Below, one piece after another: positions 7,218 to 64,000 of a stretch of 64,000 nucleotides of DNA. Location: assembly GCF_003024685.1 (NCBI RefSeq), contig NZ_PYLQ01000010.1:1-64000 (forward strand), given 5' to 3'. Position 1 is the first letter of the stretch, and every line of letters begins with the position of its first letter. A program made the position numbers and the translations under genes. Source of the stretch: Faecalibacillus intestinalis. Lineage in GTDB: Bacteria; Bacillota_I; Bacilli_A; Erysipelotrichales; Coprobacillaceae. The notes under the pieces were generated by a model. That model ran no database searches. It was given only the letters and a program-made list of their open reading frames with translations, and was not told the DNA's origin.

Positions 7218-7226
7218 AGATATCAC

Positions 7227-7619: not shown

Positions 7620-7691
7620 GAACACATTATACTACTAAAAGATATCTAATGATATATGTTATTGATAAAAACTAAAAAAAGTTGCCTATAT

Positions 7692-9470: not shown

Positions 9471-9489
9471 AACTATCACCTCTACTTAT

Positions 9490-9520
9490 ATTAAACAGTA
9501 TGACCTTAGGATATAGTCAA
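9490..9520 (-). promoter_or_regulatory. MerR-type promoter with 19-nt spacer (paralogue 1)
   Basis: -35 TTGACT (9515-9520) and -10 TTTAAT (9490-9495) are 19 nt apart. The spacer holds the dyad ATATCCTAAGGTCATAC centred on CCTAAGG. MerR proteins twist such over-long spacers to activate transcription. The same arrangement recurs at 23257-23287. Confidence 0.7.
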
Positions 9521-22493: not shown

Positions 22494-23237
22494 TTATTCT
22501 TTTTTTAGAATACTCTCTCTTGGATTATCTAAATGATATTCTTTTGCCCATTTTCTAAAATGTCTATTAATATATTGATTAAGTTGTACCATGTCTCGTT
22601 TATTAAGATAAATATCAACCAATCCAAGAGGATCTTCTATTGAATAATCTTTAATTCTTTCCATCATTTGATAAACAACTTCATTATTCATAATTTGAAA
22701 AGAATATGTATCATGTTGTGTAACAACATCTAAATCTACATAATAATTCATATGAGCAACTAACACTCTCATTAGACCTATTGAACTAGACATAGATAAT
22801 TTAAAATATTTTACATCACTATAGTTTATTTTTGTTTGTCCATATTGAAGATAATCTTTATAAAAATATAAGCGATCAGAAATCGTTCCATAATCTAAAA
22901 CGTGATCAACTGCTATTTTAACTTTTCTTCTTTTAATATAATTATTAATTCTTTCATCTATATTTTCTAAATCAAGATGTTGTTTTTTAATCATATCTTT
23001 TTTATTTTCTAAAACATCTCTAATCGACTTCTTATCATTTATAATTTGTTTGATTTCTTCAATCGTGACATCCATTTCTCTTAATAATAAAATAAATTTA
23101 ATTCTTGAAACATCCTCTTGATTATAATTTCGATAATTATTGCTATCTCTTGCTGGTTTTACCAAACCTTCATTTTCATAATAAATCAGTGTTTTCTTTG
23201 TTATTGATAACATTTCTTCTACTTCATGTGTTGTCAT
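22494..23237 (-). CDS. MerR family transcriptional regulator, paralogue 2
   Basis: It matches the regulator at 8724-9470 along its whole length: the same winged helix (THEVEEMLSITKKTLIYYENEG), coiled dimerisation helix and C-terminal domain ending HFRKWAKEYHLDNPRESI. Differences are scattered conservative changes, so the pair arose by duplication rather than a recent copy. Start: ATG at 23235-23237 with AGAGGTGAT. The ligand is unknown. A truncated AraC gene lies upstream on the other strand. Confidence 0.85.
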   Translation of the reverse strand: MTTHEVEEMLSITKKTLIYYENEGLVKPARDSNNYRNYNQEDVSRIKFILLLREMDVTIEEIKQIINDKKSIRDVLENKKDMIKKQHLDLENIDERINNYIKRRKVKIAVDHVLDYGTISDRLYFYKDYLQYGQTKINYSDVKYFKLSMSSSIGLMRVLVAHMNYYVDLDVVTQHDTYSFQIMNNEVVYQMMERIKDYSIEDPLGLVDIYLNKRDMVQLNQYINRHFRKWAKEYHLDNPRESILKKE

Positions 23238-23256
23238 ATCCATCACCTCTACCCTT

Positions 23257-23367: not shown

Positions 23368-23814
23368 ATGCCAACTTCTTTAAAACCTAAAGATTTAGAT
23401 AATACTGATTTACATGCTTATATAATAGCTAATGAATTGATTATTGATCAATTCAAACAAATCATTTCATTATTTAAACAACAAAAGCGTCTACAAAATA
23501 TGTTAAGCTTTATTCATCAAAATTATTATAAAAGTATTTCTTTACAAGATATTGCTGAAAGTGGAAATATGAGCATAGCTCAATGTTATCATTATTTTAA
23601 AATGATTGTTAAAATGTCTCCTTATGATTATTTAATTCACTATCGTTTATTAAAAAGTATTGATTATCTTTTAGATTCTACTTTCAATATTACTGAAATT
23701 TCTGAAAAAGTTGGTTTTCAAAATGTAAATCATTATATCCAAACATTTAATGGGGCATACACTTTATCACCTAAAAAGTATCAAAAAGAACATAGAAAAA
23801 GGAATTTACAATAA
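23368..23814 (+). pseudogene. AraC family regulator, truncated (DNA-binding domain only)
   Basis: The 148-residue frame ends in a complete AraC-type double helix-turn-helix (SLQDIAESGNMSIAQCYHYFK, then FNITEISEKVGFQNVNHYIQTF and LSPKKYQKE). The usual cupin/sensory part is reduced to about 40 residues, and no ribosome binding site precedes the ATG. It is probably the 3' remnant of a normal regulator of about 280 residues, though a short functional protein cannot be excluded. Confidence 0.6.
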
Positions 23815-23835: not shown

Positions 23836-23988
23836 TCATTTGACAATTTCCATCCAACATAAATAATCAGCGATCTTTACCTTCATCCCTTCTAGAATAT
23901 GAACTCTTTGAAGAGGCGTCACTAAAGATTCTAATGTTCTCCAAAACACTTTTTCGCTCATTTCTTTATTATTTATATAGAATTTCAT
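23836..23988 (-). CDS. Small conserved protein, copy A (50 residues)
   Basis: The reading frame MKFYINNKEMSEKVFWRTL ... ADYLCWMEIVK is closely matched by a 49-residue frame at 25866-26015. Most differences are conservative or silent, so both copies look protein-coding. The protein is small, without a signal peptide or obvious motif. It marks the far end of the first of two similarly built modules. Ribosome binding is weak (TAGGGA). Confidence 0.6.
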   Translation of the reverse strand: MKFYINNKEMSEKVFWRTLESLVTPLQRVHILEGMKVKIADYLCWMEIVK

Positions 23989-24126
23989 TTTGATTCCCTA
24001 CCCTTTTTATATTTTTTATAAGACAACCAAAATCAATTTTAGCACAACACTCTTTTCAGTTCTATATTTCAAACAACATCTCTAAGCCGTATATGTCCAT
24101 TACTTCTTTTTTCATTAATACATCCT

Positions 24127-24156
24127 AATATTTAATTTTTAAACATGATTAGTATA
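24127..24156. repeat. 30-bp direct repeat, copy A
   Basis: It starts AATATTTAATTTTTAAACA and matches 26324-26353 at 29 of 30 positions in the same orientation. Weaker similarity continues for about 45 bp further. Both copies lie between the small ORF and the 3' end of a defence-type gene. The rest of 23989-24254 is AT-rich, with no gene seen. Confidence 0.7.
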
Positions 24157-24254
24157 CATATTTAAAAAGTACAAACAAGAATACGAAAATCACATAATTC
24201 TTCAATATTCTTGTTCTATATATTTATTACTACAATTAGCTATCTTTTTTATAT

Positions 24255-25562
24255 TTAGTTACTTTCGTCCTCTGAAGTATCATGAACTTTATATTCTTCT
24301 AAATACTTACTGACTTCTTGATAATCCTCTGAATGTCTAGAACGATAAACGCATTGATTACTACTCATATATATACTCATTACCGATTCTATATCTTCTA
24401 TAGCTAAATCTTGTAAATGTTTCTTAAAAAAGTTCATGAAACCATCAGCATCATTAAATCCATTATAAGGTGGTACTTTATTTATTAAGATTTTAGAAAA
24501 TTCTGCTAAATCGAAATCTACACTTTCTTTTACAGCATCATATAATGTCATTGAATAAAGTGGTTGTTGAACTATACTGTTATCTTTGAAAAATTCATAT
24601 GGAGTTTTATTAGAACGTGGATAAAATAGTCTATAATATTTTATCCCATTTGGGTTCAGTAAAATTTCGTTGCTGATATATTCAAACAATGACACATCTT
24701 CTTTGATTATATCCAATAAAATTGGAAAATTTAAAATAAGTTCTATTAAGGATTGTTTTCTTTCAGAAGAGTTTTCTAAATTTTCAATACTAATACTTAA
24801 TAATTTTTTTCTAACATCTTCTTCTTTAAATAATCTTTCAAACCCATTTTTCCTTATATGATCTGTCATAGCGTAAACAAATGCAAATAATCCATAAGCA
24901 TTTCTTTCTGCATCTTTATCAGTAGTAATAAATAATAATTTTAAAAATGTTTTATACGACATTTTTAGTGAATCATATGTCATACGTTCCAAATAGTTTT
25001 TGGTTATTTCATTTTTTATTCTTTCATCCAGACTATTTTGAGAAATATCATCAATTCTTTGTGAATAAATTTCAACAACTTCTTCTACTATAGAAAATAA
25101 ATCCATAATAAATGGTGCTTTAACAGAAAGTATATTATCATACATTGAACATATCAACATTCTAGCTTGATAATCCTCTGGAACATATAATGTATTATCA
25201 TTGACCTTCAAATGAGCACATTTGTGTCTACACTCTCTTAAATAATTTACGTCCTCTGTAAATCGATTAAAATACAACTTACAATTTTTATTAAAGAATT
25301 CAATTATTTTCTTTTCGACTTCTAAATATTTTTCATTTTTTAAAATTAATTCATTAATTTCTGCTAATTTTTCCTCAGCCTTATTATTCCCCTCACTTGC
25401 CATAGTTTGTAATTTCATAAACAAATCATAAATAACAAATGAATATAACAAAACAATAGTTGCTCTATAATTTTTACTATAGTAACATTGTAAAATTTCT
25501 TCAAAATATTGTCGAGAATCTGGATTGTCGAAAACTCTTAAATCTCTTTCATCAAATAGCAT
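24255..25562 (-). CDS. Uncharacterised HEPN-like protein, probable defence gene
   Basis: This is a 435-residue, mostly helical cytosolic protein. The N-terminal third carries an R-x4-H-type motif in LRECRHKCAHLKVND, like the RNase motif of HEPN domains. The remaining part has no motif I know. The start has AGGAGA upstream of the ATG. Its place between a small ORF/repeat and a recombinase scar mirrors that of AbiH in the next module. It could be an abortive-infection RNase; the assignment rests on one motif and context. Confidence 0.55.
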   Translation of the reverse strand: MLFDERDLRVFDNPDSRQYFEEILQCYYSKNYRATIVLLYSFVIYDLFMKLQTMASEGNNKAEEKLAEINELILKNEKYLEVEKKIIEFFNKNCKLYFNRFTEDVNYLRECRHKCAHLKVNDNTLYVPEDYQARMLICSMYDNILSVKAPFIMDLFSIVEEVVEIYSQRIDDISQNSLDERIKNEITKNYLERMTYDSLKMSYKTFLKLLFITTDKDAERNAYGLFAFVYAMTDHIRKNGFERLFKEEDVRKKLLSISIENLENSSERKQSLIELILNFPILLDIIKEDVSLFEYISNEILLNPNGIKYYRLFYPRSNKTPYEFFKDNSIVQQPLYSMTLYDAVKESVDFDLAEFSKILINKVPPYNGFNDADGFMNFFKKHLQDLAIEDIESVMSIYMSSNQCVYRSRHSEDYQEVSKYLEEYKVHDTSEDESN

Positions 25563-25686
25563 ATTTCTTCTCCTTTACATATTTTTAAATTAAAATAATT
25601 TGATATTATTTATTATTTTAATAATATCAAATATTACATTTTTCAACAAATTTTACTAAATAAACTTGTTTATATTATCATAACAT

Positions 25687-25745
25687 TTATTTTAATTTAC
25701 TCATAGTAAATTCACACCTTTGATTATCTATTGTTTCTATTTAAT
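25687..25745 (-). pseudogene. Scar of a serine recombinase 3' end
   Basis: On the minus strand the text reads ETIDNQRCEFTMSKLK then stop, matching ETIDDQKCELLLNQIS at the end of the recombinase at 27712. Nucleotide identity is high over about 35 bp (around ATAGAAACAATAGAT) and stops abruptly on the upstream side; one base is missing at the break. The rest of the gene is absent. The flanking stretches 25563-25686 and 25746-25865 hold no gene. Confidence 0.65.
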
Positions 25746-25865
25746 AGGGTAAAATATTTTGTGTAAATTATGATTTTTCAATTATAGAAAATGGACATAT
25801 AAATAAAGAAAAATAGTAAATCACTTGATTTACTATCTCATCTGTCATATTCACTTTTAAAAGCA

Positions 25866-26015
25866 TTACACTATTTCAATCCAACATAAATAATCGGCAA
25901 TCTTCACTTTCATCCCATCCAAGATATGTACTCTTTGCATTGGACTTACTAATGATTCTAGTGTTCTCCAAAATACTTTTTCACTTAATTCTTTATTGTT
26001 AATATAAAATTTCAT
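25866..26015 (-). CDS. Small conserved protein, copy B (49 residues)
   Basis: Paralogue of the frame at 23836, beginning MKFYINNKELSEKVFWRTL and ending ADYLCWIEIV. AGGAAA precedes the ATG. About four fifths of residues are identical between copies. It again lies beyond the 30-bp repeat and the defence gene in the direction of transcription. Confidence 0.6.
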   Translation of the reverse strand: MKFYINNKELSEKVFWRTLESLVSPMQRVHILDGMKVKIADYLCWIEIV

Positions 26016-26066
26016 TTGGTTTCCTGCTTTCTTTTAATGACATCCATTTTACCTCATCTTTGAAGT

Positions 26067-26135
26067 AAAAAATAGCGATTTTTTGGTAGTGACACCCTTT
26101 TATATAGGTGACATCCACGTAAATCGCTATTTTTT
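26067..26135. repeat. Long inverted repeat, possible relic of a mobile element end
   Basis: AAAAAATAGCGATTT and its exact inverted copy (15 bp) flank about 40 nt containing TGACACCC and TGACATCC direct motifs. The TGACATCC motif also occurs at 26037-26044. The form resembles paired ends of a deleted insertion sequence or a small MITE, but it could be a bidirectional terminator. No coding region is visible from 26136 to 26323. Confidence 0.45.
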
Positions 26136-26323
26136 GATTCTTTAAAATATCTTAAAAAATATTGATTCCATCTGTGTTTTTTCGATGATATCCATTTTAA
26201 CTCTTAATTTTGAATTTAGGAGTCAATACAGATGTCATTAAATGTATTTTTAGCCTTTCAAAAAAGTAACTTGGCACCATATATAAAATTCTTACAATCA
26301 CTTTTGCCGCATATATCAAATCG

Positions 26324-26353
26324 AATATTTAATTTTTAAACAAGATTAGTATA
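26324..26353. repeat. 30-bp direct repeat, copy B
   Basis: Second copy of the repeat at 24127-24156, one mismatch (A for T in AAACAAGATT). It lies 77 bp beyond the AbiH stop codon. Confidence 0.7.
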
Positions 26354-26430
26354 TCATATTAAAAATATACTAACAAGAATTCAGAACCCACATACTTCTT
26401 TAATTTAACAAGTAGAAATAACTGATTACT

Positions 26431-27630
26431 TTAATCTGCTTCAGGAAGTGTCTGTGGTTTAAATTCAATAGTTTTATATGCTCCACACGTTCTATCTATC
26501 AATTCATCAGCTCCCATAATTTGTACTAGATTTCTTATTAATTTACTTAACTCTTTTTTGTCATCCTTATTTTTTCGATGATAGTATATTTTAGTTTTCA
26601 CATTATTATTACATATTAATAATTTTAAAATATCTTTATCAGTTTTATCTAATGAATGACCAAAAATATAAAGTTCATATGATGAAAATAAATTACGTCT
26701 TATCTTATCTACCCATTCCATGTAAAAACTGTCTGTAGATTTATAAATTCTTTGATAGAATTTCTTAAATGCTAAAAATTCTAACTTTTCATCTCTGTCA
26801 TGACCTTCTAGATACTCATCAATTCCAAGAACCAAATTACAAGTATCTACATTATTATTTATATCCGCTTTACCATGTACATAATCATATTCAATTTTAT
26901 TTGATTGATCATATATTCTTTCATATGTATTAGAATAATTAAATGACAAAACATAATCTGGATTAATATCTTTGATATCATCATTTTTTTGTAACACTTC
27001 TATTTTATTTATAAATTCACAAATATAGATTTCCAATGTCCTTATTAACTTATCCAAATCCAGAGTCATTTTTTCAATATATTCATCAAAAATTTCTAAA
27101 TTTGTATACATATCATCTAGATTTGATTTTTTAAACTTTTTAAGTTTTTTTGAAATATTCACAAAATTCTGTACAACTTCTAATTTTATGACTTTGCTCC
27201 CTTCACCTTGTTGTATACGTTCTCTTCTTTCTATATTATTTCTTATGCATTCAAATGCTTGTATTACATTTGAAATTTCAGATTCAAAATCTATCCAGTT
27301 TTTTCCAAGAGTATATCTAATATTTAAAAAATAATGTATCCAAATATTCTCTTTAATATTATCATATATTTCAATAGCTAATTTATCTGGATTATCATTT
27401 CTTTTTTTATACCACTCTAGTAACTTGTCTTTTATAGAATCATCTACATCCCAAGTATTAAGAGCAGATTTCTCATATGCTTTGTCATCTATATGCATTA
27501 GATATGTAAACATCCTTGATACCTTATCACAAAAATCAAGAAAATAACTATATGATGTTGGTAACCCATGTGCTAAATCGAACCCATTACCAATCAACAA
27601 TATTCTTGTAACTCCTGTGTCTATATTCAT
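26431..27630 (-). CDS. abiH: AbiH family abortive infection protein
   Basis: The N-terminal motif RILLIGNGFDLAHGLPTSYSYFLDF is the signature of bacteriophage abortive infection protein AbiH. The C-terminal region contains YVHGKAD and SYELYIFGHSLDKTDKDIL, also family features. The 399-residue length is typical. AbiH blocks phage multiplication by an unknown mechanism. The start has GGGAGG upstream. It sits immediately downstream of the integrase gene, a common cargo position. Confidence 0.9.
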   Translation of the reverse strand: MNIDTGVTRILLIGNGFDLAHGLPTSYSYFLDFCDKVSRMFTYLMHIDDKAYEKSALNTWDVDDSIKDKLLEWYKKRNDNPDKLAIEIYDNIKENIWIHYFLNIRYTLGKNWIDFESEISNVIQAFECIRNNIERRERIQQGEGSKVIKLEVVQNFVNISKKLKKFKKSNLDDMYTNLEIFDEYIEKMTLDLDKLIRTLEIYICEFINKIEVLQKNDDIKDINPDYVLSFNYSNTYERIYDQSNKIEYDYVHGKADINNNVDTCNLVLGIDEYLEGHDRDEKLEFLAFKKFYQRIYKSTDSFYMEWVDKIRRNLFSSYELYIFGHSLDKTDKDILKLLICNNNVKTKIYYHRKNKDDKKELSKLIRNLVQIMGADELIDRTCGAYKTIEFKPQTLPEAD

Positions 27631-27711
27631 AATGTTCCTCCCATCTATTTAGTAATTATTAAATATATTTTACTATATTTAATAATCATTTGCATTCATC
27701 TAAAAAAATTT

Positions 27712-29379
27712 CTAACTTATCTGATTTAATAGGAGTTCACATTTTTGATCATCTATTGTTTCTATTTCAATCTTGTCTTTTTTTACAATAATTCTATCAA
27801 TAAAAACTGCAAGATCTTCTTGTGTCATAACAGTATGTTCATTGCTATTTTTTTCTAACGTTTTTAATAGTTTTTCCTGTCTGCCTTGCTTTAATGCATT
27901 GTATTTGTCATCAAGCTTTTTCAGTTCTTTTTTAAGCATTTGTTTGGTTTGATAACATTGTGCCAAGTGTTCCTCAATTTGACTTTCGTCTTGAACGCCT
28001 CTGGCAACAAGTAACATTCCTTTATCTAATAATTCATTTATTTGTGAATTCACATTTTCTAATTCACAATTCAGTTTTTGTTTCTTTTCAATAATATCTT
28101 TTGGATTCAAATATTCCGATAATTCTTTAGCAAGTTCAAGTCGTGTTTTTTCTTTTGATTTTGTTTTTCCATTGATCAATGATGTTAAAGCATCCAGTAA
28201 TGGCTTTTCTTTTAAAGTCACACTGTTGGGACAGATTGCATTTCCATTCTTCAACCTGTTTGAACATCTCCATACAGGTTCTTTTTCCTTATTTCTTTTT
28301 GTCCAGACAGCCCTTCTATATAAGGCGCCACACTCTGAACAGATGATTTTATTACTTAAAGGATTTTTAGATGAATAGCGATTCTGATGGTGACTTTCCA
28401 CAACTTCTTTTTCATCATTTGATTTCATATTCCTTTTTGTTCTTTCTACTTGAGCTGCTTTGAATACTTCTTTGGTCACAATCGCAGGATGACTGTTTTC
28501 CACAAAGTACATTTTCTTCTGACCTTCATTTTTATACCGTTTCTTATGAAGAAAATCTATGCTGAATGTCTTCTTTAAAAGAGCATCACCACTGTACTTT
28601 TCATTTTGCAGCATCCTGCCAATTGTTCCTGAATCCCATTTTGTACTCCCGTTCTTCTTGGGAACTTTGTTTTCCGTCAGGTACCTTGCTATTTTGCTTT
28701 CGCTCATTCCTGAAAGATATTTAGAAAAGATCTCTCGAACAACTTCTGCTTCTTCTTCAATAATATCAAGTGTTCCTCTGTTTGACTTATAGCCATACAT
28801 ATTGGCAGCATAAACCTTTCCTTTTTCAAACTGCCTTTGATATCCCCACTTGATACTTTCACTTTTATCTTCACTGCTTTGTTGGGCAACACTTGAAAGG
28901 ATCGTCAGCAACATCTCATTTGCTTCTAGACTGTGAACATTCTCCACTTCAAAGTAGACATCGACATTGTATTCCTTGAGGATTCTTAAATACATCAGCG
29001 AATCAACAGTATTCCTTGCAAATCGTGTAATACTTTTTGTAATGATCATATCTAGTTTTCCTGCTCGAGCATCATCAATCATACGCATAAAATCTGATCT
29101 TTTATTGGTTGATGTACCTGTTATTCCTTCATCTGAATAAATGGCAACAAGTTCCCAGCTTTCATGATTACCTATATAGTTTTCATAATATTCACACTGT
29201 GTTTCATAACTCAGTTCCTGTTCATCAGAATCTGTTGAAACCCTACAGTATGCTCCAACTTTTATTTTCCTGTTTTGCCTGTCATTGTATGATGGCTGGA
29301 ACTTCTTTCTTGGAGCAATCACTTTAACCTTCGGTGCAGTTGTTTCATGTTCTTTGTCATCTCTGATAATATAGTTCAC
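27712..29379 (-). CDS. Large serine recombinase A (site-specific integrase)
   Basis: The resolvase domain begins GAYCRVSTDSDEQELSYETQ, with the catalytic serine in VST, and continues to KSITRFARNTVDSL. A recombinase domain (about 195-300) and a zinc ribbon (CSECGALYRRAVW ... CSNRLKNGNAICPNS) follow, then a coiled coil and DNA-binding end. The 555-residue length fits integrases of the TnpX/TndX type. The start codon is GTG at 29377-29379, after AAAGGGGG. It is the last gene of a coupled recombinase operon and faces the AbiH cargo. Confidence 0.95.
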   Translation of the reverse strand: MNYIIRDDKEHETTAPKVKVIAPRKKFQPSYNDRQNRKIKVGAYCRVSTDSDEQELSYETQCEYYENYIGNHESWELVAIYSDEGITGTSTNKRSDFMRMIDDARAGKLDMIITKSITRFARNTVDSLMYLRILKEYNVDVYFEVENVHSLEANEMLLTILSSVAQQSSEDKSESIKWGYQRQFEKGKVYAANMYGYKSNRGTLDIIEEEAEVVREIFSKYLSGMSESKIARYLTENKVPKKNGSTKWDSGTIGRMLQNEKYSGDALLKKTFSIDFLHKKRYKNEGQKKMYFVENSHPAIVTKEVFKAAQVERTKRNMKSNDEKEVVESHHQNRYSSKNPLSNKIICSECGALYRRAVWTKRNKEKEPVWRCSNRLKNGNAICPNSVTLKEKPLLDALTSLINGKTKSKEKTRLELAKELSEYLNPKDIIEKKQKLNCELENVNSQINELLDKGMLLVARGVQDESQIEEHLAQCYQTKQMLKKELKKLDDKYNALKQGRQEKLLKTLEKNSNEHTVMTQEDLAVFIDRIIVKKDKIEIETIDDQKCELLLNQIS

Positions 29380-29396
29380 AATCTTACCCCCTTTCC

Positions 29397-29909
29397 TTAA
29401 TAATTAATAAAAAGTTCAAGACCATTATTGAAAATACTCAGTATTCCTGTTTCATATACCTCAATCTTTTCAATAATATTCTTGAATTCACATTTTTCTA
29501 TATTACTTTTTAACTTCACATTTTCATATTCCTGTGAATTTTGCTGATTCAAATAGTCACAAATAAAGTTCTTGTAGTCACTTTCTGTATTCATATTTTG
29601 GAGTGCATTTCTATTCAATATTTCAAAATACTGTTCACTTGATTCACTGTTCCATCCTTGTATGTATTTGTCTTTCATATTGATAACTTCTTCCAGCAAC
29701 AAATTCACATTCTTGACCAGAACACTTTCTTCGATTCGATATTTCTGATCTTCACTTACATAGAAGCATTCATTTTTTCGAGATCCATTCTTATCTCTTT
29801 TACCTCTGTAGATTTTTCTTTTTAAAGGAATACTGTCAATTCCCCAAAAGACCTTGTTTTTAAAAAACTGCTGTATCATTCTATTTTCTTTTGCCTTTTC
29901 TTTATCCAT
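29397..29909 (-). CDS. Recombinase C-terminus-like accessory protein
   Basis: This 170-residue protein lacks a resolvase domain. Its end (FKNIIEKIEVYETGILSIFNNGLEL) has the pattern of the last 30 residues of large serine recombinases, and the middle is helical. It starts at the ATG of TAATG, sharing a base with the stop of recombinase B, and ends 17 nt before recombinase A. This position suggests a subunit working with the two enzymes. The resemblance is by eye. Confidence 0.6.
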   Translation of the reverse strand: MDKEKAKENRMIQQFFKNKVFWGIDSIPLKRKIYRGKRDKNGSRKNECFYVSEDQKYRIEESVLVKNVNLLLEEVINMKDKYIQGWNSESSEQYFEILNRNALQNMNTESDYKNFICDYLNQQNSQEYENVKLKSNIEKCEFKNIIEKIEVYETGILSIFNNGLELFINY

Positions 29910-31459
29910 TAGAACTGTTTCCTTTCTACTTTTAACTTAAGATCGTTTTTCAATGTGAACTGGATATCCAATGTTCCCACTTCAATCGAATCAACTAAAG
30001 TATTGAAGATTTCTTCATCCAGTGCAGTGATTTCTTTTACTGATTCCAGACATTCAATGATGATCTGTGTCTGTATCACTTCAAATCTCTGATAGATTTT
30101 TTCATTGAGTTTGCACTTTTGCATTTCAAAAACTGATTTGTCTACCAGCAACTCGTTATGCTTTTTCTTATAATCTTCCAGACTTATAAGATCTTTCTGA
30201 TAATATCGAACAAGTGTATTGATAGAACTGCTTACTTTTTTAAGTTCACGATTAACGAGATCAAGTTCACATTTGTCATCGTCATTTGTCGTAAAATTCA
30301 CAATATGTTTTTTATAGGCTTCCAAAACATGAATATTTTCTTTGAGCTTATAAAAGATTTTTAAAAATGCATCTTCTATTTCATCCGTTCCAATCATTTT
30401 TACTTCACATTTCTTTGCTGAAGTAACATGATTACTGCAACTCCAATATTCTTTATTCCTCAACACACTTCTTTTAAAAGTTCCACCACAATGTTCACAT
30501 TTTATTTTTGATGTCAGCAGATATTCTCTATTTCCATCTGTCTGATTTTTATTGAACTTCAACTTGTTGTTCACAAGTTTTTCATTTGCCTTTTCAAAAA
30601 GTTCACGATCAATGATTTTTGGGAACACATCGTAAACATAATACTGTGCAAGTTCACCTTTATTTGTGACTAACTTATAAGGAAAGACATCAGGTGAATA
30701 CTTTTTTTGAAGAAGCATATCTCCACAATACCTTTCATTTTTAAGCATTGATGAAACTGTGGACTGTGACCACTTTTTCTTTTTGAAATAATGTTTATTC
30801 AGATAATCCACAAGTTTTGTTACCGAAAAATCTTTATTCACATATTTATTAAAGATATCTTCAACAATCTTTGCTTCATCATCTATGACTTTTACTTCAC
30901 CATCTATTCTTTGATAACCAAACGGCAACTTCGGTTGGTTATATCTTCCTTCTTTTGCTCTTGTACGAAATGCCCATTTCTGTGCATTTGAAATTGCTTT
31001 TGATTCAATTTCGGCACAGGCAGCATAGACAGCAAGCATCATTTCACTTCCCATTTTTGCTGTATCGATTTTTTCTGTCATAAAATAAACGGAGACACCT
31101 ATTGATTTCAGTTCTCTTACTACTGAAAGTGTCTCCGTTATATTTCGTGCAAATCGACTGATCGATTTAGTAATTATTCTATTTATAAGACCTTTTCGAC
31201 AGTCTTCAATCATTTGAAGAAAACCATCTCTCTTGTCCATTCTTGTTCCAGTTATTCCTTCATCTGTATAGATCTTAACCAGTTTCGAATTTTCAAGACT
31301 GTTGACATAGGATTCATAGAAGTCAACCTGATTGTTATATGAATTAAGCTGATCTTCACTGTCTGAACTGACTCTTGCATAACAGCCAACAAGATTGATT
31401 CTGTTTACAAATCTTTCCAGTGGTTCGATAATGCGTACTTGTTTTTGAGCATGAGCCAT
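29909..31459 (-). CDS. Large serine recombinase B
   Basis: It carries its own intact resolvase domain (VGCYARVSSDSEDQLNSYNNQ, with the catalytic serine in VSS), the KSISRFARN strand, a recombinase domain and a zinc ribbon (CEHCGGTFKRSVLRNKEYWSCSNHV). A coiled coil follows. The ATG at 31457-31459 has AAGGGGA upstream and is preferred to upstream codons. It is similar in layout but clearly divergent from recombinase A, so both are probably needed or act on different sites. Confidence 0.94.
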   Translation of the reverse strand: MAHAQKQVRIIEPLERFVNRINLVGCYARVSSDSEDQLNSYNNQVDFYESYVNSLENSKLVKIYTDEGITGTRMDKRDGFLQMIEDCRKGLINRIITKSISRFARNITETLSVVRELKSIGVSVYFMTEKIDTAKMGSEMMLAVYAACAEIESKAISNAQKWAFRTRAKEGRYNQPKLPFGYQRIDGEVKVIDDEAKIVEDIFNKYVNKDFSVTKLVDYLNKHYFKKKKWSQSTVSSMLKNERYCGDMLLQKKYSPDVFPYKLVTNKGELAQYYVYDVFPKIIDRELFEKANEKLVNNKLKFNKNQTDGNREYLLTSKIKCEHCGGTFKRSVLRNKEYWSCSNHVTSAKKCEVKMIGTDEIEDAFLKIFYKLKENIHVLEAYKKHIVNFTTNDDDKCELDLVNRELKKVSSSINTLVRYYQKDLISLEDYKKKHNELLVDKSVFEMQKCKLNEKIYQRFEVIQTQIIIECLESVKEITALDEEIFNTLVDSIEVGTLDIQFTLKNDLKLKVERKQF

Positions 31460-31544
31460 TCTAAAAATCCCCTTTCTTATCACCACATACAGTACCACAA
31501 CTTTTTCGATCTATCCATGATATTATTCACTTTATTTTGTGAAT

Positions 31545-32885: not shown

Positions 32886-32914
32886 AAAAAAATAAGTTAC
32901 ATTTTTGACTTATT
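32886..32914 (-). terminator. Terminator of the sigma-like gene
   Basis: AAATAAGT and ACTTATTT pair around the stop codon, followed by a T run on the minus strand. Confidence 0.6.
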
Positions 32915-33355
32915 TTTGATATTTTCTATTATTCTTTTTTTACGTTTATGTATCGCTGGTTGAGAAACTCCCATCAAGGTTGAAAGTTCTCTTTCTGTTT
33001 TATTCTTAATGAGAAGATTTGTAATAAGATCCCTATCTTCTTTTGAAAGCTGATTAATGATATTCATTACATTTTCAACTTCTTCATTAATATTTAAAGT
33101 ATCATATTGATTATTATCATCCGCAACTTTATCAACAAGTGCTGTATTATTATTATCTAACTGATCTAAACTGAATACTTTAAACTCGTTTCTCTTTTCT
33201 TTTTCTCGTTCTTCTTTTTTAAATGAGTTATAACAAATTTTATATACTTCTTCCGATACCTCATGGTATTGACCTTTTATTTTAAAATAATAGTGTTTGT
33301 TTCCTTTAAGATCTCTTTTGATCCAAAAATAGTTTCTTTTATAATCGTTTTCCAT
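32897..33355 (-). CDS. Sigma-70 region 4-like regulator
   Basis: This 152-residue protein has a charged N-terminal half and a C-terminal helix-turn-helix (LSKEDRDLITNLLIKNK, then TERELSTLMGVSQPAIHKRKKRI) of the sigma region 4 type. Similar proteins occur in Tn916/Tn1549-like elements and are thought to control transfer or excision. The leader contains CTCCTCC, which could pair with the GGGAGG ribosome binding site. It lies just upstream of the recombinase operon leader. Confidence 0.8.
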   Translation of the reverse strand: MENDYKRNYFWIKRDLKGNKHYYFKIKGQYHEVSEEVYKICYNSFKKEEREKEKRNEFKVFSLDQLDNNNTALVDKVADDNNQYDTLNINEEVENVMNIINQLSKEDRDLITNLLIKNKTERELSTLMGVSQPAIHKRKKRIIENIKNKSKM

Positions 33356-37585: not shown

Positions 37586-40500
37586 TCAGTATTCAAATAT
37601 TCGAATAAGGACATCTCCTATCTGACCCGGTATATCTTTAGTCCTTGAAAGTGATCCTTTTGGAATATAAATATCCAATCTTTTTGTACTAACTTTTCTA
37701 ACCTCATTCAATTTATCACCTAATTCTTTTCCTTTTTTAAAGTTATTTACTTTTCTTAAGATGACATCATCATTTAAATCAGAAGCATACTGTTTAACTT
37801 TTCTTAGTATAGCACTGTCCTTTTCATAACTTGGTAACGTCACATCAATTGTTTTAACGCTGATTCCTTCTCCATTTTTGAAAAAATCAAATACTGGGAA
37901 GAACCCATCTGCTAATTTTCCAACATGCTCATATGCTGCATATTGAATTTTTGCAAGTTTTTCCTCAATTATTGTACCTCGTAATTTTGCAGGTAAGCTC
38001 CACTCTTCAGCAACTTTTGTTGATACTCTTCCAAATAAGTCATCAATATAACTTGAAAGTCTTGAACATAAACTGCTCACTGTTGAATAGCATTTATTAA
38101 CCAAAGGAATTTGTTCTATTTTTCCAGGTACTTTCTTCAAATAAGAAATTGTTCTTTTTGGAAAATCAGGAAGCTTTTCTAAAATACGTTTTGCAAGATC
38201 CGTTGCTTTTCCAGCAGCCCATTTTAATGGTTTTAGTAAGGAATCTGCAACCATTGTAAATACAATACAGCCAATGGAAATAATTGCACTTATAATCATT
38301 CCTCTTGCAAAATATATTAATGCATTAACAGCATCACATACATCCCCTGCTACTGGTAAAAATCCAATAACATCAATTATAAATTGCAGTTGATCTAATA
38401 TCTTATCTGACTTAGGTGATGGACACGGTTGCGGTTCTTTAGCCTTTACTTTTTTTACAGGTTGTATAACTTTTTTTACTGCCTTCGTTGATTCATTAAC
38501 TATTTTTACTGCATTAGAAACTGCCGAAGCAATTGCACCTGTTGTTTTTGATGGCACCGTCGTTGGTTTCTTTACTGTCTTTTTCTTTTCATCTTTCTTA
38601 TTGCTGAAAATACTTCCAACAGCATTTATAACACTATTTGCGGCACTAGCAATGATTGATAAGATGCTTTTGTGTCCACTAGGATCTACATACTTGTATT
38701 GATTATTCAAACAGTATGTGTATCGGTTTTGACTTGTAATGTTATCTTGTGTTCCCTTATAATCATCTATCTGTACGAACTGTCCAATTCTTGGATTGTA
38801 GTATCTTGCTCTTAAATAGATGTTTCCTGTTGTATCAAGCTTTTCTCCATCATAACCATAACCGCTTGTTTTATCATCTGTTTTTCCAAAGTCATCATAT
38901 TCAATCTGTGACATTGTCCCTTTTGATGATATTTCAGCCATTACACTTTGATTGTTTCCACTTAGATAAGTTTGTGTTCCATCTGCACTTTCTGTTGAGA
39001 TTCGTTCTTCTCCATAGATATGAACATCATCATTTTCAGAAAGCACAAGTGTATTTTCAGCTGTCTTATCTAAAAGATAATCTTTGTATTCACATTTTTC
39101 ATTGGATTTTGGATCCTTAATGAGATTACTTGCACACAATCCATTTTTTCTTCTGTATGTAAGCTGATATCTCATTGCATCAAATGATTCATCTGATTTT
39201 TTCGCATCCAACAGTTCTTCTACTTCAGTAAATGGTAATGACTGCATATAGTCGAACCATTCTTCTGTATCCTGTTTGTAATCTAAATCATATGGGCTGT
39301 TGATGATCTTTTCTTCATGAATTCGATCACCTTCACCATCATATTCATAATTGTAAGTTCTGTCTCTGTTTGTTTTTAAAGTAGTCAATTGACCAAATTC
39401 ATCATATTGATAATATTCTTTGTATCCACCAGCATAATAGATATCTCTTACATTTCCATTTTTATCATAATAGATATCAGTAAGTCCATCTTTTGATTTA
39501 ATACTTGTCAACTGATTTTTGTCATTATAGTGATAGATTTTATTTGTTCCATCACTTGATGACTCTACTTTGTTTCCAAAAAGATCATAGCTGTATTCAG
39601 TTATGACTGTTTTTCCATCAATCGTTTTTGTTGAAGCTTTCAATTCATCCGATTCATTGTAGTCATAGCTGTTAACGACACCATTGATTGTTTCTGAAAT
39701 AACATTGTCCTGTCCGTCATACTCATATTTGTATTCTGACAGTGTCTTGTCACCTTTAGTATTGACATAAGCTGTTCTACGATTTAGTTCATCATAACTG
39801 TAATCTGTAGTAATACCATTTCTTTCTAATGATTTTGTATTTCCTCTTACATCATAGCTGTAAGATGCATATTCCTTGTCATTTTTAGAAACCTTGTCTA
39901 TTTTATCAAACTGATTATAGGTATAGCCGATTGTATAATCATTATACTTCACTTCAGTTCTATTTCCATAGATATCCCATTTATATTCAACATTATTGTC
40001 GTTGGCATCTTTAACCTTTGTAATATTGTTGAACTTGTCATAGGTATACTTGACACTCTTATTGTTATAGTCTGCTTCTAAAAGGTTGTCATAGGCATCA
40101 TATTTGAACTGTCTTGTTCCTTCTGAAAGCTTTCTTCCCAATGCATCATATGAATAATCGATCGTTGTTCCATCGTTTTTTGTATAAGATGTCATTTGAC
40201 CGAAATCATCATACTGATAAGTTTCAGTAAGTCCATATTCGCTTACTTCTTTAATAAGATTATCAGCTTCATCATATTCATAAGTTGCTTTTTGATCATT
40301 ATAACTTCTTTCAACAAGATTGTTGTTTCCGTCATAATCGTACTTCATCACTCTTTCAAGAGGACTTTGTACCTTTGTCATGTTATTTAAGCTGTCGTAT
40401 TGATATCTTGTAATAAAGCCATTGCTGTTTGTTTCTGCAATCATATTGCTGTTGGCATCATATTCTCTTTTGATAACATGATCATAGATATCTTTATATT

Positions 40501-47509: not shown

Positions 47510-47510
47510 T

Positions 47511-47645: not shown

Positions 47646-47672
47646 ATATATTCTCCCTCCATTCTTTATCAC

Positions 47673-47736
47673 ATAATATCCCATATTATGATTTGCAAAG
47701 TAATATTGCCGAAATTTAAACTTTTTTTGGTGAAAT
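47673..47736 (-). promoter_or_regulatory. agrD-toxin promoter with LytTR-type direct repeats
   Basis: TTGCCGAAAT (47706-47715) and TTGGTGAAAT (47727-47736) are direct repeats with starts 21 bp apart, two helical turns. LytTR regulators such as AgrA bind pairs of 9-bp repeats with this spacing. The -10 is TATTAT (47673-47678). The -35 at 17-nt distance (ACTTTG) is poor, as expected for an activator-dependent promoter. A dyad CATAATAT-N3-ATATTATG overlaps the -10. Confidence 0.6.
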
Positions 47737-47740
47737 CTAC

Positions 47741-50949: not shown

Positions 50950-52689
50950 TTATTCAACTTTGACACCCGCCTCATTTATTATTTTTTTAAGATCGAATTT
51001 TATATTGTCATCTTTTTCAAATTTATATTTTAAAATTGATGTGATCTTATTTATATCTGCATATTTAACTTCTCTCTGTACTCTTTGGTTGACTTGATAT
51101 TCCTTGTCCAACTTTATCTTCCACTTAATGAATAATCTTAATACTGTTTTCATTGGATGCATTCCAGTCTTCATCAAAATAAAATGACCCTTTGGCATAC
51201 TCTTTAATTCATCTGTTGTCATAAGAGGTCTTTCTATCATTTGTAAAGACTGTGATGGATCATTTTTCCCTTTACTAACTGATCCACTCATGACAGTCTT
51301 TGATCCAAGATTTTCACTCATTACTTTCGCTGTTTCTGAATTAGGTGCAAAACCGCCAAATAGTGTATCCTGACAGTTATCCACAATAATACTCGCTCCT
51401 TCTTTTCCATAATTCTTTTCTAACTGTGCCAATGATTGAATAATTGCCACTATGGAAATATTTCTTGATCTGGATGCCGAAAACATCATTTCTGCTGATT
51501 CAATTTTAGGGATAGTTCCAATTTCATCTAGATACATAATAACCTTTCTTTTTAATCTTCCACCCTGACTATCAGCACAAACCAACATTTCTCGATAATA
51601 CTGTTGAATAAAAAGAGAAATCAAAAAGTGTTTTGTATTATCTTCTTCAGGCATTACCAGAAAGATTGCAGATTTTTCACTGCAAAATTTCTCTATATCA
51701 ACTGTGGTTTCGAAACACAATATCTGTTCAATCTCAGAATCAATAAATGCATTTAAACGAGATAAAACAGTAGAAAGAACAGACATCATTGCCTGTTCTC
51801 CTGTATTCAAAGCAGCTCCAGCAAACCACTTTGCTTTATGATTGTCAGGCAAATAATCAAGCAGGATCTGAAACTGTGTTTTCCCTTTTATTCCAGAAGG
51901 TTTCAACAGATCCTGAACAAGTTTAAATACACTGACAATATGCCTTTCTCCGTCATCACAAAATTCAGAAATAATTAAAATGATACTTGTAAGAAGTCCC
52001 TCTGCTGAATCATAAAAGAATGAGTTTTGACCATAGCTTGATGCGCTTTCTCCATCAGAAAAGATAATTGTTTTAGCAATTATTTTGGCGTACTTTTCTG
52101 TCTTGGCTTTTAAAGACAAATCATTTCTGTTTTGTTTGTACTGATCCATATATTTATTGACCATATGAAGCATATTGTTTCCATCTGAAAAAAGAGGATT
52201 TCTTAAGTCAATAACTGAAATATTGTACCCATAATAGTCATGAGCAATTCCACCATAATTACGATACAGATCACCTTTTGTATCTGTTGTTATAAAAGAG
52301 ACTCCACTGGCACAGGCATATTCTAAATTTGGGTATAAAAAATGGGCTGTTTTTCCAACACCAGCTGCACCAATCATCAACAAATGAATATCATCACAAT
52401 CAACATATCCAAATGTTTTTCCAAAGTTTATTTTACTTCCTACAACCAATCCCTGTGATTTCGGAAGATCAATACCTTTTCTCCACTTCACACTGTCAAA
52501 TTCAATATATTTCAAGCTTTGATGAACCTCTTTATCTGTCGCAAATCGAGCTGTTCCGTATTGTCCATCACCAACTGTTTTCGATTTGATCTTATTCAGA
52601 TTATAGTTTCCATTAAAATACACAGCACATCCTATAAAAAGAAAAAATAAAATACCAAACGCTATAAATATTCCTTGTGATTTTGTCAT
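50950..52689 (-). CDS. VirD4/TraG-type coupling protein
   Basis: 579 residues, one N-terminal membrane segment (about 5-25), then an ATPase with Walker A GAAGVGKTAHFLYPNLE and Walker B VIMYLDEIGTIPKI. The N-terminal GQYGTARFATDKE and later IVAIIQSLAQLE motifs are typical of Firmicute VirD4. It brings the relaxase-DNA complex to the transfer channel. RBS GGTGAG. Operon with the primase-like gene upstream. Confidence 0.95.
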   Translation of the reverse strand: MTKSQGIFIAFGILFFLFIGCAVYFNGNYNLNKIKSKTVGDGQYGTARFATDKEVHQSLKYIEFDSVKWRKGIDLPKSQGLVVGSKINFGKTFGYVDCDDIHLLMIGAAGVGKTAHFLYPNLEYACASGVSFITTDTKGDLYRNYGGIAHDYYGYNISVIDLRNPLFSDGNNMLHMVNKYMDQYKQNRNDLSLKAKTEKYAKIIAKTIIFSDGESASSYGQNSFFYDSAEGLLTSIILIISEFCDDGERHIVSVFKLVQDLLKPSGIKGKTQFQILLDYLPDNHKAKWFAGAALNTGEQAMMSVLSTVLSRLNAFIDSEIEQILCFETTVDIEKFCSEKSAIFLVMPEEDNTKHFLISLFIQQYYREMLVCADSQGGRLKRKVIMYLDEIGTIPKIESAEMMFSASRSRNISIVAIIQSLAQLEKNYGKEGASIIVDNCQDTLFGGFAPNSETAKVMSENLGSKTVMSGSVSKGKNDPSQSLQMIERPLMTTDELKSMPKGHFILMKTGMHPMKTVLRLFIKWKIKLDKEYQVNQRVQREVKYADINKITSILKYKFEKDDNIKFDLKKIINEAGVKVE

Positions 52690-54476: not shown

Positions 54477-56420
54477 TTAAAAACGAAATGAATGATCATC
54501 TTCTCTATGACCCGTTGCACTTCGTTTTCTTATTAATTTCTGTTTGAGTTTATGTTCGACTCCTGTAAGAATGGTATTTCTTATTGGCAACTCATTTTCA
54601 ATGATTCTTCCAATATGACGAAACATTCTTGTTGTCATCATACTTAATGGAACTTCTTTTATATCATCTATATGATCTAAAAAATATTGAGCGTATTCAT
54701 TTCCATTTTCAGCGGCCAATGTTAATAGCTTTATAGCTCTTTCTTTATCCTTTTCAACATCTTTTCCTAAAAGGTACATTTTGCCTAAATAATACTGTGC
54801 ATATTCATTTCTATATTCACAGGCTTTATTCAAATAATAAATTCCCTGCTCTACATTCTTTTCAGTAACTTCACCTTCAACAAGAATTTTACCAATTTTA
54901 AATTGTGCTACTGAAAAATTTTCATCTGCCGACTGATAAAGATAATGAACATACAAATCATCATCCCCTAATTCCCTATAGATATTTGCTAGTCGGTTAT
55001 AAGCAAATTTGTTATCACCACTTTGTTTATAACATTCTATTGCCTTATCCAAATCACGATCTATATAGAATCCATCATGATAGATTTTACCAAGTATATA
55101 TTTAGATAATGGAAGTTCACATTTTTCAAGCCATTCTATACTTTCTGGAATCATTTCAAATTCATTGTTTTTAATTGCTAAATTGATATCACCTATTTTT
55201 CTATAGTCCCGCCTTATTTTATATTCTTTCAACAAACTATTTTCTTCATTAAATTCCACACCTAATTCATTAGTCACATCATCCAATTCACTATTGCCGA
55301 AATTATGAATATCTTCAAAATCCTGCATGACCATATTTAAAATCATATTCTTGATGCTTTTAAATTCTTTTTGTTCAAGAAGTGGTAAACGTTCAAGGAC
55401 AGTGTCATTATATGTCTCATTGACTTGTTGTTTATATAGATACCATTGTTCATATAGCTGTGCAATATTTTCATCCTTTTCAAGTTCTCTTAAAATATCA
55501 CTGATGATCTGCTTTGATTCCTTTGGAATATAGGCATACATCATTCTTCCATGATAATCTTTCAAGCTCATTTTGAGTTTTAAAAGGTCATTAAAAATCT
55601 GTGAACTGTCAAAATGTTCATGATCCATTCCATTTAAAATTTCAACGACTTTTTCTTTACTGTATTTTTTTATTTCATCTCGATTGGCAGTTTGATTTTC
55701 ATAAATATGTAAAAGATCATTTTTAAAAATACTTCCAGCATACTGTTTTCTGATTGACTCTATTCCTTTTTTAGTTAAATAACCCTCTTTAGGATTCTTT
55801 GAATAGGCAACCATATGAATATGAGGATGATACCCTTCATTATGAAAAGCAGCAAACCATTTGAGATTGTTCGGATCTATCTTCATTGCCTTTGCCAGAT
55901 CATTTCTTTTTTCCTGACAAAGTGACATCCAGCTTTGAACTGAATCAAAGCCTAAACGGGTAGCATCCTCTCTTTTTATAGAAATGATATGTGTCCAGAC
56001 GTTGCCTTCATGTTCTCCTATTTCTTTGACAACATCATTCAGTTCAAATTGAAGACCTGCATCTGAAAACAAACCATGCTCACCAAGTTTTTCTACTCTA
56101 GGACGATGTGAAATATAATCTATATAATTTTCCTTTGTTGCAATATCATCAAGATTAGTATCTATCACACTCGATATAAATTCACTGGCATTTTCTCTTG
56201 TTGGATTTTCTTTGAAATCATTATATTCAAACATCCCTGTTGCAGTTGGATAATCATTTATAAGCTGCTGAATAAGTTTATGCTGTTTCTTTGTTGCCTT
56301 CATATTTCCATAATCACTTTTGAACTTTTCTACGCCTTCTCTGGTAGCAATATAATTCACATAATATTCTTTATGACTTTTACCTTTCATATATCCTGAC
56401 TTAACAATAATCCTTACCAT
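54477..56420 (-). CDS. MobP-type HUH relaxase with Sel1-like repeats
   Basis: 647 residues. The N-terminal relaxase domain (about 1-260) contains the metal-binding HUH motif in GYHPHIHMVAYS. A middle helical part follows. Residues about 440-590 hold Sel1-like repeats, for example AQFKIGKILVEGE, then AQYYLGKMYLLGKDV and AQYFLDHID. The C-terminus is basic. It nicks oriT and pilots the strand. The ATG at 56418-56420 has a modest ribosome binding site. A terminator hairpin ends 16 nt upstream, so expression may be attenuated. Sel1 repeats in a relaxase are unusual and suggest a protein-binding platform. Confidence 0.88.
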   Translation of the reverse strand: MVRIIVKSGYMKGKSHKEYYVNYIATREGVEKFKSDYGNMKATKKQHKLIQQLINDYPTATGMFEYNDFKENPTRENASEFISSVIDTNLDDIATKENYIDYISHRPRVEKLGEHGLFSDAGLQFELNDVVKEIGEHEGNVWTHIISIKREDATRLGFDSVQSWMSLCQEKRNDLAKAMKIDPNNLKWFAAFHNEGYHPHIHMVAYSKNPKEGYLTKKGIESIRKQYAGSIFKNDLLHIYENQTANRDEIKKYSKEKVVEILNGMDHEHFDSSQIFNDLLKLKMSLKDYHGRMMYAYIPKESKQIISDILRELEKDENIAQLYEQWYLYKQQVNETYNDTVLERLPLLEQKEFKSIKNMILNMVMQDFEDIHNFGNSELDDVTNELGVEFNEENSLLKEYKIRRDYRKIGDINLAIKNNEFEMIPESIEWLEKCELPLSKYILGKIYHDGFYIDRDLDKAIECYKQSGDNKFAYNRLANIYRELGDDDLYVHYLYQSADENFSVAQFKIGKILVEGEVTEKNVEQGIYYLNKACEYRNEYAQYYLGKMYLLGKDVEKDKERAIKLLTLAAENGNEYAQYFLDHIDDIKEVPLSMMTTRMFRHIGRIIENELPIRNTILTGVEHKLKQKLIRKRSATGHREDDHSFRF

Positions 56421-56435
56421 AATCTTTACCAAATA

Positions 56436-62068: not shown

Positions 62069-63922
62069 CTATCTTCCGCCTTTATCACCAAACAGTTTTG
62101 ATTTATAATCTGGTGCATGAACAATAAGGTTGTATCTTTCACTTCCACATTTATAAAGACAGGCACCTCTTTGCGGATATTTAATAAGTTCATATTCACT
62201 TTCTTCAAGCTGTAACGTATCAATATAAAATCTTGCATCCGTATTTCCTGCATTGAACAGGAACGTATGTGTTGGTATTGAAAACAATGGTTTTGTTAGT
62301 TCTCTGATTCCTTCAATATTGAAATCTTCCAGATTTTGAGAAGCTAAAATAACAGAACTTTCCTTTTTTCGAACACGCTTCATAAAATTTCTAATGTATT
62401 CTACTGCTGTTGTATTTGTTAAAAAAAGATAAAGTTCATCGATTGAAGCTACTGTATACCCTCTTTTCAACAGCTCATTGGACATATAGGAAAGGATATT
62501 AAAAAGCATCGCATCTTTTAAAGACTTATTTGCCTGTAAAAGATCCTTAACACCAAAAGTCACAACCTTTTGTGAATGAATATTGGTATGCCCATTAAAG
62601 AAACGACTGTCACTTCCCACACATATTGAATTTAATAAAAGCAATATTTCACGCAGTGATTCTCTTGTATAAATGTTATTTCTGTTTGTGTTGTAATGTT
62701 TGTATTCTTCATCAATGTAATCATAGAGATCACTCAATATAGGGTAGTCGTCATGTTCTAGAACACTAAGATCCGTCTTTTCATTAATGTTGAATCTTTG
62801 ATAGACTTTAACCAACATAATTTCTAACGTATCGATTTGCTCCTCTGTAAACGCCTTATATGTCTTGAAAAAATCCTTTAAAAAGGAAATATGTTGTGCA
62901 AGAACTGTTGACTGTTTAAATGCAACAGGAACATCATCTTCACCTGAATCTTCTATATCTTCTGACCATTGTTTTGGTTCAAGAACATTAATGATATATC
63001 GTCCTGCCATCATATCAATAAAAACACCGCCAAGATTATAGGTTACTTCTTCATATTCATGTTCAGGATCTAGAGTTATTAAAGACATTCCCTGTTCTCT
63101 TAAATTCAACAGTAAAAGTTTTAAAAGATATGATTTTCCCTGTCCTGAATTTCCAAGAATAAGAGCATTGGCATTTGTTCTGTCATCACTTCTTTCATTG
63201 AAATCAACAATAATATTGCTTCCGAATTTATCGTGACCTATATAAATTCCATGCGGATCTGTCTTACCTGAATAGTTAAATGGGAAAAGATTTGCAACAC
63301 TTGATGCTGGAAGAACACGTTCAAACTGCTCCTTGAATCCATCATATCCCGATGGAGTAACCGCTAGAAATCCTTCTTTCTGTCTTAAAAGAAGACGATC
63401 AACATTCAACTTGCTTCGCACAAGTTCTGTCATCATTTCAGTCTGAATAAGTTTAAGTTCATCATAGCTGTCAGCAATCAACTCAAAATAAACAGCACAG
63501 TGAACAAGTGGTTCTCTGTTTCGATGCATATTGGCAATCAGTTCAATAACATCATTAAGATTGCTTTGAGCAGTTACTGTTTCTTTTAGATCTTGCGTAT
63601 TGCTTTGTCTGAGCCTGTTTTTATTAGCTGCATTCCCAATGATCTTCTTTTCTTCTGCAGAAGTGACCTGTCTGGCATAAATATGCAAGGTGATTCCGTC
63701 TTTTTCACCCATATAACGTAAAAGTGCCTGTTCATCTGTAGAGGTTGGATACTCTCGTAATGCCCAGACACTTCTGTAGCTGTTGCCACAAATAAAATAT
63801 TCTGTATAGAAACGTATTGTTGAAGGTGCAATCATATCAAGATAATCCTGCACCTTGATTTCTTCTTCATCTTCAACTTCAGCCTTTTTGAATTTACCAA
63901 ATAATTTATTGAACACCATCAT
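62069..63922 (-). CDS. VirB4/TraE-type conjugation ATPase
   Basis: About 617 residues. Walker A is ALILGNSGQGKSYLLK and Walker B lies near YTVASIDELYLFL. The N-terminal region (EEIKVQDYLDMIAPSTIRF) is typical of Firmicute VirB4. It powers assembly of the type IV secretion channel. The ATG at 63920-63922 (or the next ATG) follows AGAGGTG; the frame open upstream is shared with the end of the previous gene, so I chose the internal start. Confidence 0.95.
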   Translation of the reverse strand: MMVFNKLFGKFKKAEVEDEEEIKVQDYLDMIAPSTIRFYTEYFICGNSYRSVWALREYPTSTDEQALLRYMGEKDGITLHIYARQVTSAEEKKIIGNAANKNRLRQSNTQDLKETVTAQSNLNDVIELIANMHRNREPLVHCAVYFELIADSYDELKLIQTEMMTELVRSKLNVDRLLLRQKEGFLAVTPSGYDGFKEQFERVLPASSVANLFPFNYSGKTDPHGIYIGHDKFGSNIIVDFNERSDDRTNANALILGNSGQGKSYLLKLLLLNLREQGMSLITLDPEHEYEEVTYNLGGVFIDMMAGRYIINVLEPKQWSEDIEDSGEDDVPVAFKQSTVLAQHISFLKDFFKTYKAFTEEQIDTLEIMLVKVYQRFNINEKTDLSVLEHDDYPILSDLYDYIDEEYKHYNTNRNNIYTRESLREILLLLNSICVGSDSRFFNGHTNIHSQKVVTFGVKDLLQANKSLKDAMLFNILSYMSNELLKRGYTVASIDELYLFLTNTTAVEYIRNFMKRVRKKESSVILASQNLEDFNIEGIRELTKPLFSIPTHTFLFNAGNTDARFYIDTLQLEESEYELIKYPQRGACLYKCGSERYNLIVHAPDYKSKLFGDKGGR

Positions 63923-64000
63923 ACCACCTCTTTCCATCATAATCTTCAAACTGACTTGTCGTAACATTCTGTTCAAAATAGACAGCCAACATTCTTTTAA
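63906..64000 (-). CDS. C-terminus of the gene before virB4 (probable PrgI family)
   Basis: The frame ends KRMLAVYFEQNVTTSQFEDY, then seven to ten more residues and a TAA at 63906-63908, overlapping the virB4 start. The rest is outside the window. In similar elements a PrgI-type membrane protein precedes virB4, so this is the likely identity. Confidence 0.5.
   Translation of the reverse strand, partial: KRMLAVYFEQNVTTSQFEDYDGKRWYDGVQ

Follow-up and report, generated by a model that had tools for sequence, protein, structure and literature searches.

A 50-kb integrative and conjugative element abutting an older remnant at ssrA in Faecalibacillus intestinalis, each with a putative anti-phage gene

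Genes and features at the locus

The window, that is the whole stretch of DNA analysed, comprises 64,000 nucleotides of the Faecalibacillus intestinalis genome (positions 1 to 64,000 of contig NZ_PYLQ01000010.1). Two units abut one another at the ssrA locus of this host: a 50-kb integrative and conjugative element (ICE, 26212-76132) and an older, ~2.1-kb remnant, here called E1 (about 24.1-26.21 kb). The window covers most of the ICE, the remainder of which runs past the window end up to the tmRNA gene ssrA (C53:76132-76481, outside the window). Coordinates written below with two dots denote features on the minus strand.

On the chromosomal side of the array, outside the remnant, lies a 50-aa open reading frame (small ORF 1, 23836..23988). 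The flank to its left holds two MerR-like paralogues (8724-10210 and 22494-23246), a probable AraC-type fragment (23368-23814) and, by eye, an IS200/IS605-type TnpA-like ORF with an adjoining TnpB-like ORF (6432-7625). A truncated HipA-like gene is found 13.6 kb from small ORF 1 in this genome and directly beside it in F. faecis (genome G012), so this flank has been rearranged; in a genome of another genus (G010) the HipA-like gene is longer and matches PADLOC PDC-M03A.

E1 is made up of a right-end remnant (R1, 24127..24206) containing the first copy of a 30-bp repeat, a defence gene, a recombinase scar and a left end (L2, 25803..26210) with an att arm, a hairpin and small ORF 2 (25866-26015, minus strand). 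The scar (25693..25740) is short and consists of just 16 codons from the 3' end of a gene related to that of the 555-aa serine recombinase of the ICE; the 16 codons were covered by tblastn (IETIDNQRCEFTMSKL), and the scar and the 3' end of the ICE recombinase gene share a direct repeat (25711-25742 and 27736-27767, 91%). The defence gene, which is the cargo of E1, was assigned to the PD-T7-3 / 'Dandelion' HEPN-domain type (24255..25562; PADLOC PDLC04108, E 1.8e-32) by a near full-length profile match (residues 13-424 of 435 aligned to 15-415/432). Its translation contains the R-x4-H motif RHKCAH and matches by sequence the solved structures PDB 9wx2 ('Dandelion-hepn', E 3.2e-11) and 9wxf.

The ICE begins with its right end (R2, 26213..26406), which contains the second copy of the 30-bp repeat and is followed by its cargo gene, AbiH (26431..27630; Pfam PF14253, E 3e-42, 145.9 bits against a gathering score of 30.9). 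Next come a 555-aa large serine recombinase with Resolvase, Recombinase and Zn_ribbon_recom domains (27712..29379), which is probably the integrase, a 170-aa protein (29397..29909) and a second large serine recombinase of 529 aa (29909..31498). Farther in, the ICE encodes a VirD4/TraG coupling protein (50950..52689; Pfam T4SS-DNA_transf, E 1.7e-43), a MobL relaxase (54477..56432; Pfam MobL, E 7.5e-23) and a VirB4-like ATPase (62069..63976; AAA_10 / P-loop_TraG). With integrase genes inside it (27712-31498), a relaxase, a coupling protein, a T4SS ATPase and defined att borders, the segment 26212-76132 was classified as an ICE by gene content and borders, and is presumably mobile. It also holds a 2948-aa RHS-repeat protein with a LysM domain (37586-46432), probably a polymorphic toxin or surface protein, and an agr-like cluster with AgrB-like, histidine kinase and LytTR-type regulator pieces (46916-50129).

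Both cargo proteins resemble their named families over most of their length, and we regard each as an ordinary family member and a putative anti-phage protein; the contrast between HEPN-like and AbiH cargo drawn in the preliminary description was borne out by the PADLOC and Pfam matches. The plan it had recognised, namely a small ORF, a 30-bp repeat, a defence gene and a recombinase 3' end, was likewise found twice.

A search of the genome against itself located small ORF 3 on the same contig, 50 kb away (contig position 75790-75936), with ssrA, smpB and rnr immediately adjoining past it. Small ORFs 1 and 2 share a 161-nt repeat (81% identical), and the pattern between them (90% identity in amino acids, 82% in nucleotides, dN 0.056, dS saturated) indicates purifying selection and therefore that both are coding.

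Borders and junctions of the two units

The insertion point of the ICE was placed at the CA within the 3'-terminal CCA of ssrA, since in the alignment of ends the left-end homology stops exactly at this CA. L2 of the remnant is homologous to about 75720-76131 of its own contig and is 93.9% identical to the ssrA-adjoining copy in F. faecis. Where the two units meet, the right end of the ICE is joined to L2 in the sequence GACATCTGTATTGACTCCTAAATT-CA-AAATTAAGAGTTAAAATGGATGTC (26187..26236), in which near-symmetric 24-nt arms surround the core CA at 26211-26212 (the left arm is written here as in the ssrA-adjoining copy; one base differs at the junction itself). Only the CA core is clearly common to attL and the right-end junctions. 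By its sequence, this junction at the boundary of ICE and remnant is read as a reconstituted attP.

The junction forms an imperfect inverted repeat, with 18/24 positions matching in this genome and 21/24 in F. faecis. When both Faecalibacillus loci were scanned (46-54 kb), the expected junction was the best CA-anchored match to the left arm in the whole interval, and it ranked first in 3/3 genomes when G218, which carries a sister ICE, was included. Across 20 shuffles the top score was 18 (once) in this genome, 19 (once) in F. faecis and 16 in G218; the score of 18/24 in this genome alone is not decisive, and the argument is carried by position and by agreement between genomes. The outer att core of R1 has been deleted in this genome and retained in F. 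faecis (G012:C8:2636-2661; arm GATGTTTTTATTGACTCTTAAATT-CA), from which the outer border of E1 was placed.

The 30-bp repeat (24126-24155 and 26323-26352, 93% identical; 0 matches expected in shuffles) was considered as an att site and rejected, as it is set at least ~90 bp into the right end. It is the best-kept part of a ~195-bp right end (26207-26400 against F. faecis 2632-2825, 78%); R2 as delimited here is 78% identical to G012:C8:2632-2825 and 95% identical to G012:C8:4790-4989. The right-end motif had no matches in viral contigs. The left-end hairpin (z -6.6) is a probable terminator behind ssrA. Three spaced GGATGTCA-like motifs are seen in the left end (26030-26206) and recur in left ends of all types; the third resembles the att arm, and they are possibly binding sites for the recombinase or an accessory protein.

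These borders shift the assignment of the small ORFs by one step. The preliminary description had delimited modules at 23836-25745 and 25866-29379; their content stood, and their borders did not, as the remnant contains small ORF 2, the ICE contains small ORF 3 and small ORF 1 is part of the chromosomal flank. This shift is invisible from the window alone because the third small ORF lies 50 kb off, outside it.

F. faecis has the same double structure (at 2.4, 4.5 and 45.2 kb of its contig), and the divergence between the species, with one genome for each, supports the boundaries of the ICE, of E1 and of the chromosome with small ORF 1. Identity is about 97.5% in the ICE, 99% over most of the PD-T7-3 gene and 74-95% in the chromosome past ~77.9 kb; dS rises from 0.07 in PD-T7-3 through 0.11-0.13 in the recombinases and 0.26 in smpB to 0.65 in small ORF 1, whereas small ORFs 2 and 3 have values of 0.08 and 0.12. 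To judge by these values, small ORF 1 evolves like the chromosome and not like the ICE. The 33.5-50.6 kb segment of the ICE, in which the RHS-repeat gene lies, is unaligned with F. faecis; the F. faecis sequence has an ABC-type ATPase and a capP-like peptidase. The two cargo genes appear to have moved together between the species; an alternative route is exchange by homologous recombination at ssrA.

Relatives in the order and origin of the array

Among 316 genomes of the order, a single other close recombinase was found, in G218, which belongs to another family (51% identity to the 555-aa recombinase, compared with 98% in F. faecis). The G218 element has the same gene order, read from ORF order and sequence starts: recombinase, 179-aa protein at the position of the 170-aa protein, recombinase, RHS-size protein, VirD4-like and relaxase-like. 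It too lies at ssrA, with borders 60 kb apart (attL CCTCCAC-CA-AATAAAAGTGCCAGGACGGATGTC and right end GACATCCGTTCTGGCACAGTGTTC-CA) and with the 24+2+24 geometry and GACATC...GATGTC ends of the Faecalibacillus ICE; its right arm, 201 bp past the recombinase stop codon, matches at 18/24 positions, the highest score across 70 kb (maximum in shuffles 16). Also in this element are a 2820-aa protein at the place equivalent to the 2948-aa RHS-repeat protein and, between ssrA and the ICE core and inside the att borders, feoA/feoB-like iron transport genes (G218:C1:3838108-3843900, L125), perhaps left-end cargo. Genes similar to the agr-like cluster occur in the elements of G218, G033 and G005.

The recombinase search of the genome-contig collection returned F. 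faecis as the sole close relative, plasmid, phage and viral matches were 26-48% identical, and a phylum sample of 392 genomes added no close recombinase. Several other recombinase pairs of the order, among those inspected, adjoin phage-type genes. The attL signature CTCCACCA-N17-GGATGTCAT was detected in 9/316 genomes of the order, spread over 7 genera (reversed control 0), and in several of the nine the ICE is decayed or gone: G033 retains coupling-protein and sigma-like fragments, and G005 coupling-protein fragments. A shorter attL pattern gave 43 matches in viral contigs, which, given the size of that collection, we attribute to chance. The ICE relic at ssrA in G033 (L136, G033:C5:319585 onward) is followed by a lanthipeptide-like gene cluster, and the region also has a gene resembling window positions 32897-33355.

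Distant homologues of the small ORF (35-41% identical) were found in five genomes of another family, with no recombinase within 1.5 kb of any of them; no matches were obtained in viral contigs, plasmids or phages. In these distant copies the small ORF thus occurs without a nearby recombinase, which is part of what the preliminary description had named as counter-evidence, and by itself it does not mark a recombinase border. For the same reason a role as recombination directionality factor was unsupported.

The reading that we consider highly probable is that ICEs of a single family form a tandem array at the ssrA 3' end, in which E1 came first and was later reduced by deletion, and a complete ICE with AbiH now stands in front. 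The preliminary description had proposed that related elements inserted successively at a single site and that deletion left only a scar of the older one, and this part is well supported, because a reconstituted attP lies between the elements, attL lies at ssrA, the sister ICE occupies ssrA in another family and the double structure recurs in F. faecis. The two 'modules' of that description are thus leftovers of repeated insertions at one site. In the sequence of events that we propose, a large serine recombinase (probably the 555-aa protein, perhaps with the 529-aa and 170-aa proteins as partners) would recombine attP with the CA of the terminal ssrA CCA, leaving ssrA whole and placing the hairpin, a probable terminator, and a small ORF of the left end behind it. 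E1 would have inserted first, and an internal deletion would later have removed the stretch between its left end and the recombinase terminus, so that left end, 16 recombinase codons, PD-T7-3 gene and right end remain; the defence gene would have been kept because the cargo interval runs from the integrase 3' end to the right end. For the arrival of the second ICE there are two candidate routes, accretion through attP x attL and homologous recombination between a circular ICE and the resident one; either is expected to yield an attP-like junction between the elements, and the array would have moved between Faecalibacillus species.

Two other origins were weighed. The head-to-tail blocks with shared ends could have arisen within one lineage, by unequal crossing-over that copied a block of left end, cargo and right end, with defence genes swapped in afterwards. 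However, the junction is an exact join of right end to left end at the att core, as expected of tandem elements, and the remnant's recombinase terminus has diverged from the ICE copy; moreover, divergence amounts to 5% between left ends 2 and 3 of the same genome and to ~22% between the R1 and R2 copies of F. faecis, which places the separation of the elements long before, and we regard such a duplication as very improbable. Similarly small is the chance that ssrA natively has the left end and its small ORF as its flank and that elements insert downstream of them. Left-end-like sequence does follow ssrA with no full ICE detectable in G010, G028, G032 and G127; these flanks are taken as relics, and could partly be an ancestral ssrA flank. 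In G010, the sequence after ssrA is a left end joined to the C-terminal portion of a small ORF, with the HipA-like gene next, an arrangement suggestive of an array that has collapsed through deletion. Against a native flank, the left arm after ssrA is absent from the congeners G015 and G016, whose flanks are unrelated, left-end types differ between G032 and G033 of one genus but agree between G032 and G218, which belong to different families, and in three elements the initial 24 nt of the left end make up an inverted repeat together with the right end.

The cargo interval and comparison with known systems

Extending the tandem-array reading, the preliminary description had suggested a defined slot that collects anti-phage genes beside the integrase. 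The interval between the recombinase and the right end is not constant among copies and was found in three states: AbiH in the ICE, PD-T7-3 in E1 and empty in G218 (201 bp from stop codon to arm). Two related elements thus hold different defence genes in the same place, which agrees with the suggestion, but one relative is empty and the filled cases are only two, which leaves the slot plausible but thin. The AbiH allele is 77% identical in amino acids in F. faecis, identity breaks sharply at the recombinase stop codon (86-91% for AbiH against 98% for the recombinase) and dN/dS between the species is 0.57 for AbiH against 0.06-0.07 for the recombinases. These values fit exchange or rapid evolution at the slot without establishing a rule; they could also have arisen with no exchange, through drift or diversifying selection, and the ICE has other variable cargo elsewhere (33.5-50.6 kb). 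In F. faecis and G010 the chromosomal small ORF has beside it a HipA-like gene matching the PADLOC candidate PDC-M03A, which also favours the suggestion. On balance, that anti-phage genes are exchanged in the interval bounded by the integrase 3' end and the right end, and that old ICEs leave theirs at ssrA, is a tentative reading, to which we give slightly less than even weight. Rather unlikely, on present cases, is the stronger form, in which this interval would be a genuine site of exchange for anti-phage systems of one gene each and ssrA would work as a ratchet, decayed ICEs leaving defence genes fixed and the next ICE bringing another.

Among known systems, Tn5397-like ICEs have a large serine recombinase, relaxase, VirD4 and VirB4 and integrate without a long direct repeat. 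The present ICE is alike in all of these and differs in its ssrA CCA end, in the two recombinases flanking a 170-aa protein and in the tandem remnant with reconstituted attP. The SCC and SCCmec cassettes of the Ccr recombinases have two serine recombinases and form tandem arrays at one conserved gene, rlmH, with remnants and sometimes defence cargo, and are not known to carry conjugation genes. The array shares with them two serine recombinases, a tandem arrangement at a conserved gene, remnants and defence cargo; unlike them, it lies at ssrA and has conjugation genes, and its matches to the NCBIfam CcrA/B/C models (46-117 bits) fall far under the cut-offs of 700-900, outside Ccr membership. 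CRISPR is reported in SCCmec (PMC10434264).

The nearest precedent found is the ssrA-specific genomic islands of Dehalococcoides (McMurdie et al. 2011, PMC3146451), which use serine recombinases at the 3' end of ssrA, occur several in tandem, in some cases lack the integration module (accretion) and show a cargo history discordant from that of the integration module. They are bounded by a 20-bp direct repeat of ssrA, their integrase gene overlaps attL, conjugation is not encoded and the cargo is dehalogenase (PMC3146451). The Faecalibacillus array resembles them in its serine recombinase, its insertion at ssrA and its tandem islands downstream of ssrA. It differs in that only the CA core is clearly shared, with no 20-bp direct repeat at the borders, in that the integrase is at the far end from ssrA and relaxase and T4SS genes are present, and in its cargo of anti-phage type.

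For this ICE family, borders are now available at base level (a 50-bp attP and the ssrA CCA target), seen in two bacterial families, together with a simple sequence signature for locating its traces and a candidate integrase/att pair. The array provides an example of mobile elements able to deposit putative anti-phage genes in the chromosome.
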